From Deltaproteobacteria bacterium (GTDB lineage: Bacteria > Desulfobacterota > Syntrophobacteria > BM002), in assembly GCA_020347625.1 (NCBI GenBank), contig CP070735.1, forward strand, positions 2,973,403 through 3,016,568: 43,166 bases of DNA. Reading direction: 5' to 3'. The notes beneath the pieces were generated by a model that saw only the letters and a list, made by a program, of their open reading frames with translations, did no database searches and was not told where the DNA came from. Of the stretch, positions 5,085 to 26,981 are shown piece after piece. Made by a program: the position numbers and the translations under genes. Numbering within the stretch: position 1 is the first letter of the stretch; each line of letters starts with the position of its first letter.

Positions 5085-5157
5085 AACCACGGAGACCACA
5101 GACCCGCCATCGGCTCCGCCTTCAGGCGAGGCGGGCGGGTCTGTGAACTCTGTGGTT
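5085..5157. repeat. long hairpin between leuD and leuB
   Basis: A left arm at 5085-5108 (AACCACGGAG then ACCACAGACCCGCC) pairs with 5134-5157 over 24 bases with three mismatches. The loop is GC-rich and about 25 bases. The word ACCAC(A/G)GAG recurs within an arm. The element fills almost the whole gap and lacks a T-run. It may affect mRNA stability or attenuate leuB-asd expression. Confidence 0.7.
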
Positions 5158-5703: not shown

Positions 5704-5793
5704 ACTAAGCACTAAACACTAGGCACTAAGCACCGATAGAGTCTTTCCAGGTTATTCTTTCTGGTGCTTAGTGCTTACTGCCCAGTTCCTAGT
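5704..5793. repeat. heptad quasi-palindrome, ACTAAGC words
   Basis: The left arm (5704-5731) is ACTAAGC, ACTAAAC, ACTAGGC, ACTAAGC without a single register slip. The right arm (5766-5793) is GCTTAGT, GCTTACT, GCCCAGT, TCCTAGT, the reverse complements of ACTAAGC, AGTAAGC, ACTGGGC and ACTAGGA. The loop is about 34 bases. It lies in the leuC-leuD gap. This is one of the cleanest examples in the window. Confidence 0.85.
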
Positions 5794-7200: not shown

Positions 7201-7228
7201 ATAATAAACTGACCCTATCAAACTTCAA
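7201..7228 (-). promoter_or_regulatory. putative sigma-70 promoter of leuCDB-asd
   Basis: On the - strand TTGAAG (7228-7223) is followed after 16 bases by TATTAT (7206-7201). These match the consensus at 4/6 and 5/6 positions. It lies between the terminator-like hairpin after pssA and the leuC start, where a separate promoter would be needed. The -35 box overlaps one end of the duplicated 35-base sequence. Confidence 0.45.
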
Positions 7229-7259
7229 GCCCAACCTATGCGGAGCTGAATACATATGC
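7225..7259. repeat. 35-base dispersed repeat, copy 1
   Basis: The sequence beginning TCAAGCCCAACCTATGCGG and ending ACATATGC is present here and at 22833-22867 with one difference (G versus A). Flanks of the two copies are unrelated. It includes a CATATG palindrome. Its length and near-identity are well beyond chance for two spacers 15 kb apart. Confidence 0.85.
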
Positions 7260-10212: not shown

Positions 10213-10695
10213 TTACCCCTTTTTGCTTCGGGCAATGGCGACCTTGCCGGTGCGGACCACCTCGACAATGCCCAGTTGTTCGAGCAGATCAAGAATGGCC
10301 TGAATTTTCCCTTCATCACCGGTTACTTCAATTGTGTAGAAAGTAGGACTGACATCAACCACCTTGCCCCTGAAAATATCCACAATACGAAGAACTTCAG
10401 CACGGGTAGCAGCCTCAGCCTTTACCTTGATCAGAGCCATTTCCCGGTCCACGAATTTCACTTCGCGAAAATCGATTACCTTGATCACACTCACAAGCTT
10501 GTTGAGTTGCTTTACAATCTGTTCCATGATCATCTCGTCACCGGTGGTAACCAAGGTAATCCGGGAAACTTCTGGATCCAGGGTTTCGGCCACGGTCAGG
10601 CACTCGATATTGAAACTCCTACCGCTGAACAGTCCAGCAACCCGGGAAAGGACACCGGGCTGATTCTCCACCAAGACACCGAGGGTATGCCTCAC
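10213..10695 (-). CDS. ilvN: acetolactate synthase small (regulatory) subunit
   Basis: ACT-domain regulatory subunit that activates IlvB and confers feedback inhibition by valine. The start is GTG 10695 (MRHTLGVLVENQPGVLSRVAG), preceded by AGGAG seven bases upstream; the longer frame to 10716 begins before that site. At 160 residues it matches the IlvH/IlvN type. The N-terminal ACT domain (residues 1-75) carries the NQPGVLSRVAGLF effector loop, and a C-terminal ACT-like domain follows. Confidence 0.95.
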   Translation of the reverse strand: MRHTLGVLVENQPGVLSRVAGLFSGRSFNIECLTVAETLDPEVSRITLVTTGDEMIMEQIVKQLNKLVSVIKVIDFREVKFVDREMALIKVKAEAATRAEVLRIVDIFRGKVVDVSPTFYTIEVTGDEGKIQAILDLLEQLGIVEVVRTGKVAIARSKKG

Positions 10696-10784
10696 GACAT
10701 CTCTCCTTTTACCCACACGTTAAAGAAAACTCGACTCCTCAGGTTGCTCCCGAGGCTTGGCCAGATAGTATTTGTCCGTAAGTC

Positions 10785-10919
10785 GCATGGCGCATAGAGC
10801 ATAGCGCAAAGCGAAAATGACTGTAAGGGGTAAACGGTGAACGGTTGCAAAACCATCGCCTAATCCTTTAACCGTTTACCAAACGCGATGCGCTTGGCGC
10901 TCTGCGCTTTGCTGCGAAC
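10785..10919. repeat. nested double heptad quasi-palindrome
   Basis: Outer left arm 10785-10812: GCATGGC, GCATAGA, GCATAGC, GCAAAGC. Inner left arm 10829-10849: GGTAAAC, GGTGAAC, GGTTGCA. Inner right arm ends at 10880 and in reverse complement reads GGTAAAC, GGTTAAA, GGATTAG, GCGATGG. Outer right arm 10885-10912: GCGATGC, GCTTGGC, GCTCTGC, GCTTTGC (reverse complements GCATCGC, GCCAAGC, GCAGAGC, GCAAAGC). Two different word families are thus nested in mirror order. It fills most of the 250-base ilvB-ilvN gap. Confidence 0.85.
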
Positions 10920-10945
10920 GCAGTGAGCGGACGACTGACAGGATC

Positions 10946-12634
10946 TTACACCAAAAGCATTTCAGTCATGGCGGCTCCAGCGGGCACCATGGGGTAGACA
11001 CATTCTTCCGGGTTCACCGCAAAGTCCATGATTACCGGCTTGGGTGAAGCGAATGCTTCTCGGATCACCGGCTCCACCTCATTGGGTTTGGTGGCCCTTA
11101 AACCCAGTGCACCGTATGCCTCTGCGAGTTTGACAAAATCTGGTGCGATTTTGAGGCAAGTGGCACAGTATTGTTTTTCGTAGAAAATCTGCTGCCACTG
11201 GCGTACCATCCCCAGATACTGATTGTTGAGTATTGCCACTTTCACCGGCAGGTTGTTCTCCACGGCAGTAGTTAACTCCTGGATGCACATTTGAATGCTA
11301 CCGTCTCCGGCGATATCAAGGACCAACCGGTCAGGAAAGGCGGCTTGAGCGCCGATAGCTGCCGGTAGGCCGTAGCCCATAGTACCCAGACCGCCAGAGG
11401 TGAGCAGGGTCCGAGGTTCGAAGAAGTGGTAGTATTGGGCGGCCCACATCTGGTTCTGGCCAACCTCGGTGGTAATGATGGCCTTACCCTTGCTCAGCTC
11501 GTAAAGTTTTTCCACCACGTACTGCGGCTTGATAACATCATCTGTCTGTTCATAGGCTAGAGGATAGGTCTCCTTCCACTTTTGAATCTGGTCCAACCAA
11601 GGTTTCCTGACCTTTTTCAGGTTACTTATCGGATTCTCTTTGACCAGCCGTAGGAGCTTCTTAAGGGCATCCTTGCAATCCCCGACAATAGGTATGTCCA
11701 CCTTAACGTTCTTGCTTATGGAAGTAGGGTCTATGTCAATATGGATAATCTTGGCTGTTGGCGCGAACTCATCAAGTTTGCCGGTTATGCGATCGTCGAA
11801 GCGGGCACCGATGGCGATAAGCAGGTCCGTAGTAGCCACCGCCATGTTGGCCCGGAAAGTGCCGTGCATTCCCAACATCCCGAGCCATAACTCGTGAGGG
11901 GCCGGAAACCCCCCCAGGCCCATAAGTGTTGTGGTCACCGGACATTTGATGCTTTCTCCAAATTGCTTCAGTTCTTTGGCCGCACTGGATGCAATGACTC
12001 CACCACCGGCGTATATGACCGGCTTCTTGGCCTTGCCAATGGCAGTATAGGCCCTTTTGATCTGGCCCATATGGGCCTCGTAAGTGGGCTTGTATCCTTT
12101 CAGATCAATCTTTTTTGGGTACTTGAAGTCGATTTTGGCATTTTGGACATCCTTGGGCAAATCCACCAGCACAGGTCCAGGGCGACCGGAACGCGCTAGA
12201 TAGAAAGCCTCACGGATGATCCTGGCAAGGTCACGAACGTCCGTGACCAGGAAATTGTGTTTAGTGCATGGCCGAGAGATGCCGACAATGTCTGCCTCTT
12301 GAAAGGCATCGTTACCGATGAGCGCAGTGGGCACCTGACCGGTGAAAACAACAATTGGAATAGAATCCATATAGGCTGTGGCAATACCAGTAACCGTATT
12401 GGTGGCTCCGGGGCCGGAGGTCACAAGACACACGCCAACGCGCCCGGTGGCCCGGGCATAGCCGTCAGCCATGTGGGTAGCTCCCTGCTCATGACGGACG
12501 AGGATATGGCGGATGTTGTGCTTGGGCATCTCGTCATAAATGTCGATAACCGCTCCTCCAGGTAAACCAAAAATGACGTCCACCTTCTCTGCTTTCAGAC
12601 ATTCAAAGAATATTTGGGCTCCTGTTAATTTCAT
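10946..12634 (-). CDS. ilvB: acetolactate synthase large (catalytic) subunit
   Basis: ThDP-dependent condensation of pyruvate with pyruvate or 2-oxobutyrate, first common step of branched-chain amino acid synthesis. The 562-residue protein has the N-terminal ThDP domain with catalytic Glu49 ([13 protein letters not shown]), the central FAD-type domain (RFDDRITG) and the C-terminal ThDP-binding motif [19 protein letters not shown]. It begins 3 bases after the DUF465 gene and is separated from ilvN by a nested heptad element. Confidence 0.97.
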
Positions 12635-13724: not shown

Positions 13725-13743
13725 GACTGTCGCAAAGCACGCG

Positions 13744-13785
13744 GGTAAACAGTAAAGGGTGAAGGGTAAACGGATCTGAGTTTCC
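13744..13785. repeat. heptad run, GGTAAAC words
   Basis: GGTAAAC, AGTAAAG, GGTGAAG, GGTAAAC, GGATCTG, AGTTTCC follow one another with a strict period of 7. The word GGTAAAC is shared with the loci at 10829, 17353 and (diverged) 36437. A partial second arm may lie near 13800 (CCGTTAAGC). The element starts 20 bases upstream of the tsaB start codon. Confidence 0.7.
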
Positions 13786-13854
13786 CGCTCAATTATTGTC
13801 CGTTAAGCATTTGGATCTAACTTCCAGCTGCCGGGGCTGCCGGCTGGCAATCTC

Positions 13855-17201: not shown

Positions 17202-17352
17202 GCCCTCGCCTCGGTCTAGGAAAGAGAAGGGGTCTTATCCAGAGATATAAAGAAATCACCATATTATGAAATGACTTTCGCATCAAGCTTGTTTTGAAAG
17301 GAGTTTCGGTAAATCACAAAAGAAGAACATTTTCAAGGCCTTTACCCGATCC

Positions 17353-17407
17353 GTTTACCGTTCACAGTTTGCTGTTTACCAAAACGCTATGCGCTTCAGC
17401 GCTGAAG
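17353..17407. repeat. heptad run plus perfect palindrome at the dctM stop
   Basis: GTTTACC, GTTCACA, GTTTGCT, GTTTACC run from 17353 to 17380 in a 7-base register; in reverse complement these are GGTAAAC, AGCAAAC, TGTGAAC, GGTAAAC. Next to it CTTCAGCGCTGAAG (17394-17407) is a perfect 14-base palindrome that includes the last two codons and the TGA of dctM. The adjacent GCGCATAGCG (- strand) matches the outer word family at 10785. Confidence 0.7.
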
Positions 17408-22810: not shown

Positions 22811-22832
22811 CGCTTCGGGAATACCTCAGCCC

Positions 22833-22867
22833 TCAAGCCCAACCTATGCGGAGCTAAATACATATGC
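22833..22867. repeat. 35-base dispersed repeat, copy 2
   Basis: Same sequence as 7225-7259 with one G-to-A difference. It sits between the hairpin-rich segment and the octad element. Flanking bases are unlike those of copy 1. Confidence 0.85.
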
Positions 22868-25647: not shown

Positions 25648-26865
25648 TTAGCTTCTGTAATCGGCGTTAATCTTGACGTAATCGAGACTTAAATCACAGG
25701 TATAGACTGATTCCTCAGCGTCTCCCTGACAAAGATCGATGGTAATGGAAAATGTTGGCTGGATCAGAATCCGGCTAGCCTCCTTCTCCGCATCTTCGCT
25801 CACTAAGCGGCCATTCTCCACTAGTTTCACTTCTCCAAAAAAGAGCTGCACCCGATTGGGATCAAAGTCGATATTCGCTCGGCCCAGTGCAGCAAGAATA
25901 CGGCCCCAGTTGGCGTCCTCGCCGTAAAGAGCGGTTTTTACCAGGGGCGAGTTGGCAACGGTGCGGGCGCCACTAAGCGCATCAAGCGGACTGGATGCTC
26001 CCCTTACCTTGATTTCAACAAACTTGGTTGCACCTTCACCGTCTGCAACTATTTTCATTGCCAGATCCAGCAGAACCTCACGCAAGGCCAAGCGCAAGCG
26101 TTCGCCATCAGATGAGTTGGGGTCCTCAATGGGGCGGTTGGCCGCAAGGCCGTTTGCCAGGACGAACAGCGTGTCGTTGGTACTGGTGTCGCCGTCCACA
26201 GTAATCCGGTTGTAGGTACGCTGCGTTTCTTCTCGAACCAAGGTTTGCAGGGCTCCAGGGGTGATGGCTACATCAGTGACCACGAAGGAGAGCAATGTTG
26301 CCATATCCGGACAGATCATTCCGGCACCTTTTGCGATGCCAAGTACGGTGAAAGACCGCTCCTGCAGTCGGCTTCTTACAATGTGGAGTTTGGGTTTAGT
26401 GTCCGTGGTCATGATGGCGCGCGCCGCATCCAGCCAGCCGTCTGGACGTAGCATATTGGCTAGTTTGGGAAGATAATTGGCCAGCGGCTCATTGGGTAAC
26501 TCCATACCAATAACCCCAGTTGAGGCCACTAAAACCTCCTCGACGGGGCAGCCTACGGCGTCAGCTGTGATTTGAGCGGTGGCTTGGGCTCGTTGCAGGC
26601 CAACTTCACCGGTACAAGCGTTTGCGATGCCGCTATTGACCACAATTGCACGGGCTGTGTTCTTGGTCAGATGTGACCGGCTGAGAATCACCGGAGCCGC
26701 CTGCACCTTGTTGGTGGTGAAAACCCCGGCGGCGGTGGCTGGGACCTCACTCACAATGAGCGCCAGATCGGTCCGCCCCTGATAGCGTATTCCAGCAGCT
26801 ATAGCGCCTGCTTTGAATCCGGTAACGGTGAACTCTTCAGGAGGAGGTGGTTGGTCAGTTGTCAT
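25648..26865 (-). CDS. argJ: bifunctional glutamate N-acetyltransferase / amino-acid acetyltransferase
   Basis: Transfers acetyl from N-acetylornithine to glutamate (and often uses acetyl-CoA), recycling the acetyl group in arginine synthesis. It is a self-cleaving proenzyme; the conserved site is KGAGMICPDMATLLSF, cut before the Thr. AAGVFTTNKVQAAPV near the N-terminus and NDTLFVLANG are also diagnostic. I place the start at 26865 (MTTDQPPPPEEFTVTGF); an ATG at 26886 lies further inside a heptad repeat that contains several ATGs, so the start is not certain. About 405 residues, as usual. The nearby ArgA-like gene belongs to the same pathway. Confidence 0.95.
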   Translation of the reverse strand: MTTDQPPPPEEFTVTGFKAGAIAAGIRYQGRTDLALIVSEVPATAAGVFTTNKVQAAPVILSRSHLTKNTARAIVVNSGIANACTGEVGLQRAQATAQITADAVGCPVEEVLVASTGVIGMELPNEPLANYLPKLANMLRPDGWLDAARAIMTTDTKPKLHIVRSRLQERSFTVLGIAKGAGMICPDMATLLSFVVTDVAITPGALQTLVREETQRTYNRITVDGDTSTNDTLFVLANGLAANRPIEDPNSSDGERLRLALREVLLDLAMKIVADGEGATKFVEIKVRGASSPLDALSGARTVANSPLVKTALYGEDANWGRILAALGRANIDFDPNRVQLFFGEVKLVENGRLVSEDAEKEASRILIQPTFSITIDLCQGDAEESVYTCDLSLDYVKINADYRS

Positions 26866-26981
26866 TTCACATTTTTCATTTTTCATTTCACATTTCGCAT
26901 TGAGAATTTAGGTCGGAAGAACATTTCACCCATGCACAGGAATGACAGATGACAACTGCGCAATGCGAAATGTCAAATGGC
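26863..26981. repeat. heptad quasi-palindrome, CATTTCA words, overlapping the argJ start
   Basis: CATTTCA, CATTTTT, CATTTTT, CATTTCA, CATTTCG, CATTGAG, AATTTAG run from 26863 to 26911 without a slip. The mirror arm CAATGCG, AAATGTC, AAATGGC lies at 26961-26981. On the - strand the words place repeated ATGs before argJ. The vocabulary is shared with the element at 15088. Confidence 0.8.

Follow-up and report, generated by a model that had tools for sequence, protein, structure and literature searches.

The window, by which we mean the whole 43,166-nucleotide stretch analysed (G000:C1:2973403-3016568 of a 3.22-Mb genome), carries ilvB and ilvN on its minus strand. The upstream gene, ilvB (10946..12634), encodes the acetolactate synthase large subunit with TPP_enzyme N, M and C domains, and the downstream gene, ilvN (10213..10716), encodes the small subunit with ALS_ss_C and ACT_AHAS_ss domains. 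The spacer between them holds heptad arrays in mirror order, given here as read on the plus strand. Four GCATAGC-type heptads, GCATGGC GCATAGA GCATAGC GCAAAGC, form the left arm of layer O (10785..10812), followed by the GGTAAAC-type left arm of layer I, GGGTAAACGGTGAACGGTT (10828..10846), a centre or loop (10847..10866), the right I arm TTTAACCGTTTACC (10867..10880) and the right O arm GATGCGCTTGGCGCTCTGCGCTTTGC (10887..10912). Alignment of copies identified the minus strand of the loop as part of a conserved GGATTA..TGG..TGCAAC centre. An initial annotation had described GCATAGC-type words outside and GGTAAAC-type words inside, each mirrored, and this arrangement, round a short loop, was confirmed at 10785-10912. 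Both of the vocabularies it named are present, but it overlooked a third, outermost one. This vocabulary, D (GTCCGTT/GTCAGTT), is degenerate in the window and flanks O and I on both sides, as a left remnant TTTGTCCGTAAGTC (10771..10784) and a right remnant GGACGACTGACAGG (10929..10942); the left remnant was assigned from its sequence, from the dispersal of D arrays in the genus and from the D+O+ / O-D- order (12/12). On one side only there is also a small hairpin, the S motif GCTCACTGCGTTCGCAGC (10912..10928, minus strand), which is common to other D-shelled copies. A profile of dispersed copies matched the whole composite unit at 10759..10911 on the minus strand (111 bits, profile positions 1-155).

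Elsewhere the window contains a convergent heptad hairpin with a CACTAAG/TAGGCAC vocabulary (5704-5793; arms of 31 nt, 77% complementary and 28 nt apart), a hairpin with an AAATGAC/CATTTCA vocabulary (26862-26979) and an inverted repeat of the CCACAGA type, AACCACGGAGACCACAGACCCGCC (5085-5157; 88% complementary). A 42-nt direct repeat (AAGCCCAACCTATGCGGAGCT..., 90% identical), unrelated to the heptads, occurs at 7218-7259 and 22826-22867.

Abundance and co-occurrence of heptad arrays

Arrays were sampled in evenly spaced stretches totalling 1.24 Mb (39% of the genome), with counts by period made on 800 kb and genes taken from simple ORF calls. Genome-wide, three-word arrays of the GCATAGC class (O) numbered 637, compared with none for the same pattern read backward, and those of the GGTAAAC class (I) numbered 240, compared with 6. 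In 800 kb there were 167 arrays of period 7, 25 of period 8 and 52 of period 14, a harmonic, with at most 5 at each of the remaining periods tested from 4 to 15; codon-shuffled sequence yielded no period-7 arrays. By the simple ORF caller, 96 of the 121 O arrays were intergenic, while intergenic DNA makes up only 19% of the 1.24-Mb sample. A GGTAAAC array lay within 60 nt of 16 of the 121 GCATAGC arrays, about eightfold more than the 1.9 expected under random intergenic placement, which gave a maximum of 7 in 300 draws. The two vocabularies therefore occur together more often than their separate frequencies predict.

Order and polarity of the arrays

With + denoting the strand seen in the left arm, the order D (outer), GCATAGC, GGTAAAC, centre was kept, together with polarity, in 70 of 72 adjacent arrays in the 1.24-Mb sample. 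The adjacencies were I+I- (18), O+O- (15), O+I+ (14) and I-O- (8) and, among those containing D, D+O+ (6), O-D- (6) and D+I+ (3); the exceptions were one I+O- and one I+O+. No adjacent arrays were found in the reversed-sequence control. The constancy of the outer-inner order, which the initial annotation had proposed to examine, was borne out, with GCATAGC outside GGTAAAC and inward polarity in 22 of 24 adjacencies. The strict order is confined to D-O-I, and the nesting of O relative to a GGATTGC-type vocabulary varied.

Across the testable vocabularies there were 74 convergent pairs and 1 divergent pair, where the majority direction of each vocabulary was defined as convergent and families with a single pair are weak evidence. 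The GCATAGC family gave 29 O+O- pairs against 1 O-O+ pair in named genomes from other lineages (among them Omnitrophota, delta bacteria, alpha bacteria and Planctomycetota). Convergent pairs have already been published for the GGGAATC heptad of Xanthomonas (PMC4692102), so polarity alone is not new. Long, nearly perfect and mostly unpaired cyanobacterial GGCATAG arrays were observed beside other heptad arrays at three loci (L099, L107 and L167).

A composite unit dispersed in the genus

The window element has full-length matches at further places in the genome, and 23 copies align as one asymmetric unit of about 150 nt with fixed junctions. Their consensus reads CAAAGCGCnnAGCGCAGAGCGCAAAGCG-TTTGGTAAACAGTAAAnGGTGAACGGTAAAC-CGATTATGCGCTGGCTnnGCAAC-nGTTCACCGTTTACCATTTACnGTTTACT-CTTTTTTTCGC-TATGCGCTATGC, with a conserved centre CGATTA..CTGG..TGCAAC. 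The unit is directional, because its junctions differ between the two sides, GCGTTTGGTAAAC on one and GTTTACTCTTTTTTTCGC on the other; profile matches scored far higher in one orientation. Several of the differences in arm length among the 23 copies equal 7 or 14 nt. Two shells hold the unit: D-S, as in the window, or E (AGTAAAGAATCCAGG ... GGACCAGGTTTTCTTTGCT). A test for terminal inverted repeats identified AGTAAAGAATCCAGG / CCAGGTTTTCTTTGCT as the termini of the E-shelled subfamily, and only degenerate D ends in the D-shelled window copy. Scoring was limited, so that the profile matches in ten congeneric genomes, at least 20-48 per genome, are lower bounds; three sister genera gave 2, 1 and 0. 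Thus the GCATAGC arms, the GGTAAAC arms and the centre belong to one asymmetric unit, of which every congener examined has many copies and which occurs in at least two shells. The initial annotation had offered two readings of the nesting, and the junctions and centre of the 23 copies, together with genus-wide presence, support its second, in which a single composite unit was copied and its copies then drifted. By the time this unit spread, the constant order had been fixed. Variants exist: at one locus (L009) the I core lies in the opposite orientation to the O arms and the shell, and O arms at other loci surround loops of about 20 nt or other heptad families.

Two truncated copies lie in the window. 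The initial annotation had reported both vocabularies again near the dctM stop; this second place proved to be a truncated half of the unit (17319..17403, minus strand; nhmmer, profile 11-93). The other half-element, between a TsaD-family gene and an M50 peptidase gene (13732..13800, plus strand; profile 21-89), had been overlooked. The two pieces were also considered as complementary halves of one element separated by genes, an idea abandoned since both correspond to one and the same profile half.

The same sites in related genomes

The relatives are partly fragmented metagenome assemblies, and each of the two ilvB-ilvN states compared was seen in at least two genomes. No heptad arrays were evident in the ilvB-ilvN spacer of G011 and G012, which belong to other genera. 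The spacers of G001, G002 and G009 hold D arms only, round a 31-nt centre that the rest of the family lacks; those of G007 and G008 hold D-S-O arms round a GCGAGAAAG-type core, followed by O-D; G004 shares the D-S-O-I unit of the window; and G005 has an O-S part in opposite orientation. In the ilvB tree, G001, G007, G008 and G009 form one shallow clade, which G002 joins by ilvN, the longer matches to G002 being mostly at 92-95% DNA identity. When compared by eye, G007/G008 and G001/G002/G009 cease to match within a D word (GTCAG|) and become alike again near GCAACGGACAACTGA. As judged from these sequences, the ilvB-ilvN interior appears to have been replaced between retained arms; alternatively, two independent insertions at a favoured site could have produced the same picture. 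Because close relatives hold different interiors in the same outer arms at ilvB-ilvN, we conclude that interior replacement also occurs. The other reading in the initial annotation, insertion of one element within another, is accordingly upheld in part: the same outer arms do hold different interiors, in close relatives as well as in other copies. At ilvB-ilvN, however, the breakpoints lie inside the outer words, and the former centre was replaced, not simply interrupted.

Other sites also vary. At the L013 site, G001 and G007 have common D arms with different interiors, and G009 and G002 are without the element. The half-element at 13732 is also present in G001, G007 and G009; G007 and G009 differ there by two whole heptads. 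The G001 copy carries a different palindromic repeat (CCTTCGACAGGCTCAGGAC...) within its I words, which it interrupts. Arms thus gain and lose whole heptads, and the interior varies or flips inside the same arms.

Some further repeats were noticed in these genomes. Close to ilvB in G002 (L299 6763-6875; G002:C1 about 1902763-1902875) lies a repeat of about 113 nt, which recurs many times in G001, G007, G008 and G009 (80-94% identity) and is probably a recently active small mobile element. At two loci, L257 (G007) and L072 (G008), a REP-like palindrome (CCTTCGACAAGCTC...GGACAGGTA) breaks GCATAG words after GCAT, and the outer D arrays at L073, L074 and L257 contain a short palindrome, TCCGCCTTAGGCGGA.

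Tests of RNA structure and of repeat class

The window strand folds with a z of -3.8, the copies form more stable folds than shuffled sequences (mean z -4.3) and the consensus has a T-run after the inner hairpin. Strong folding of single copies is as expected for any palindrome. RNAalifold on the copies gave two pairs only and no consensus structure. In a duplex test, O arms paired no better within an element than between elements, and C-type arms paired worse within than between, probably because the two arms use different sub-vocabularies. The T-run in tandem spacers ran with the genes in 9 cases and against them in 6, without the bias of intrinsic terminators, and Rfam had no match in the window. 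The lack of compensatory pairing and of orientation with transcription speaks against a terminator or a conserved RNA hairpin.

REPs are defined as hairpins of 20-40 bp that end in GTAG or CGTC (PMC3733652). Neither tag was conserved at the ends of the 23 aligned copies, and the unit, at about 150 nt, falls outside REP/REPIN size. A test for enrichment near the arrays yielded very few REP-like palindromes in the sample. There are few Y1 transposase genes, with two PF01797 hits in the genome; none was detected in G005, which nevertheless has many good copies, and the regions round eight Y1 genes contained no flanking O/I/D array pair. A RAYT as the mover of the unit was rejected, as Y1 genes showed no association with arrays. 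We infer mobility from dispersal, because neither a transposase nor a target duplication came to light and no perfectly empty site was seen; sites do differ between relatives. The element is neither a REP nor a proven MITE.

Origin of the nested element

The ilvB-ilvN element is probably one copy of a dispersed, non-autonomous, REP/MITE-like intergenic repeat about 150 nt in length, built as a nested palindrome with heptad arms that permit slippage, inversion and cassette exchange. The unit would have spread by copying through some agent, after which its heptad arms would serve as short homologies: replication slippage may alter the number of words, and recombination or template switching across the arms may swap or flip the interior. 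Spread as a unit, with later changes in the arms, implies that the mirror order was inherited from a founder unit and not set by a present RNA function. The copies may still have a sequence- or structure-dependent function. A broader proposal, which we regard as possible but doubtful, is that several phyla share a set of seven-base vocabularies whose always convergent, nestable arms act as recombination modules, with interior cassettes exchanged or flipped between loci; such a modular system would not have been described before.

The nest might instead have grown from the outside inwards, each layer being its own small mobile palindrome with the apex of one already present as its target. D-only, D-O and D-O-I states are all found, O arms surround several unrelated cores and, in other bacteria, REP dimers are reported within longer palindromes (PMC3733652) and IS elements target REPs (PMC1525189). 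This history is nevertheless unlikely: copies in two shells keep the same O-I junctions and centre, which indicates that most copies spread as a finished composite, and the earlier centre was lost at ilvB-ilvN, the D-only centre being absent from the rest of the family. It is more improbable still that the arrays are a regulatory or architectural site bound by a putative protein, IHF/HU-like or dedicated, as in the proposal for the paired tandem 7/8-mers of Geobacter metallireducens (PMC2700814), which they resemble in architecture. The fixed convergent polarity, both overall and in the GCATAGC family across phyla, is consistent with such a site, but would be expected anyway if each family stems from one palindromic founder; moreover, the content varies or is missing between close relatives, and many different readers would be required for the many vocabularies.

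An RNA hairpin between ilvB and ilvN, acting as a terminator, attenuator or mRNA-end stabilizer, is very improbable. The folding scores and the T-run would suit it, but the alignment, duplex, orientation and Rfam results above do not, and the element is absent from the same operon in other genera. Chance low-complexity drift or polymerase slippage, with no copying between loci, is hardly credible. Period 7 is a favoured unit of bacterial slippage according to literature cited in PMC4692102, and indels in heptad steps were observed, but neither convergent pairs nor the recurrence of one asymmetric 150-nt unit at many loci can arise in this way, and the 23-copy alignment contradicts this reading.

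Relation to known repeats

A literal search of a limited set of papers for the heptad words of the window returned none containing them. The closest architectures are the paired 7/8-mers of G. metallireducens (PMC2700814) and the convergent GGGAATC pairs of Xanthomonas (PMC4692102). The class 1-3 multicopy sites and H4 elements of G. metallireducens are likewise intergenic tandem 7/8-mers in opposite-strand pairs at variable distance in a delta-group host, and tandem heptads paired on opposite strands are found here too. However, their words (GTTGCTYN, TCTCCGTS, MTYCTGA and GGACCGG) have no consensus match to GCATAGC, GGTAAAC or GTCCGTT, and the accessible text proposes a regulator-site role with no nested copied unit. 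The Xanthomonas heptads also form abundant intergenic tandem arrays, with 70-75 convergent opposite-strand pairs per genome, and their repeat length at the same site differs between species. They are reported as one G-rich vocabulary for which G-quadruplexes are proposed, and the accessible text describes no multi-vocabulary nesting, whereas the arrays here comprise at least 10 vocabularies and as a rule have no GGG tracts from which quadruplexes could form. REP and BIME elements (PMC3733652, PMC1525189) are similarly high-copy intergenic palindromes that nest in larger palindromes and are targets for other elements, but according to those accounts they are 20-40 bp long, end in GTAG/CGTC and often have a RAYT, in contrast to the approximately 150-nt unit with heptad arms, in which no such tag and no linked RAYT were seen. 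The TAACTGA heptads of Beggiatoaceae (PMC4679880) and, as summarized in PMC4692102, the STRR heptads of cyanobacteria are likewise dispersed and intergenic; unlike the arrays here, both are direct, essentially unpaired and un-nested. REP dimers in longer palindromes (PMC3733652) and IS targeting of REPs (PMC1525189) are precedents for nesting. Since a three-layer heptad nest is not described in the accessible text of PMC2700814, PMC4692102, PMC3733652 or PMC1525189, we class the element as a variant of known repeat kinds, without assigning it to the REPs or to proven MITEs.

Bacterial heptad repeats have been noted for years without an accepted explanation. With at least 10 vocabularies, a fixed polarity and several nested states at one site in a close clade, the question becomes testable, including which agent copies the units, why the words have seven bases and whether arms drive rearrangement between the genes of one operon.
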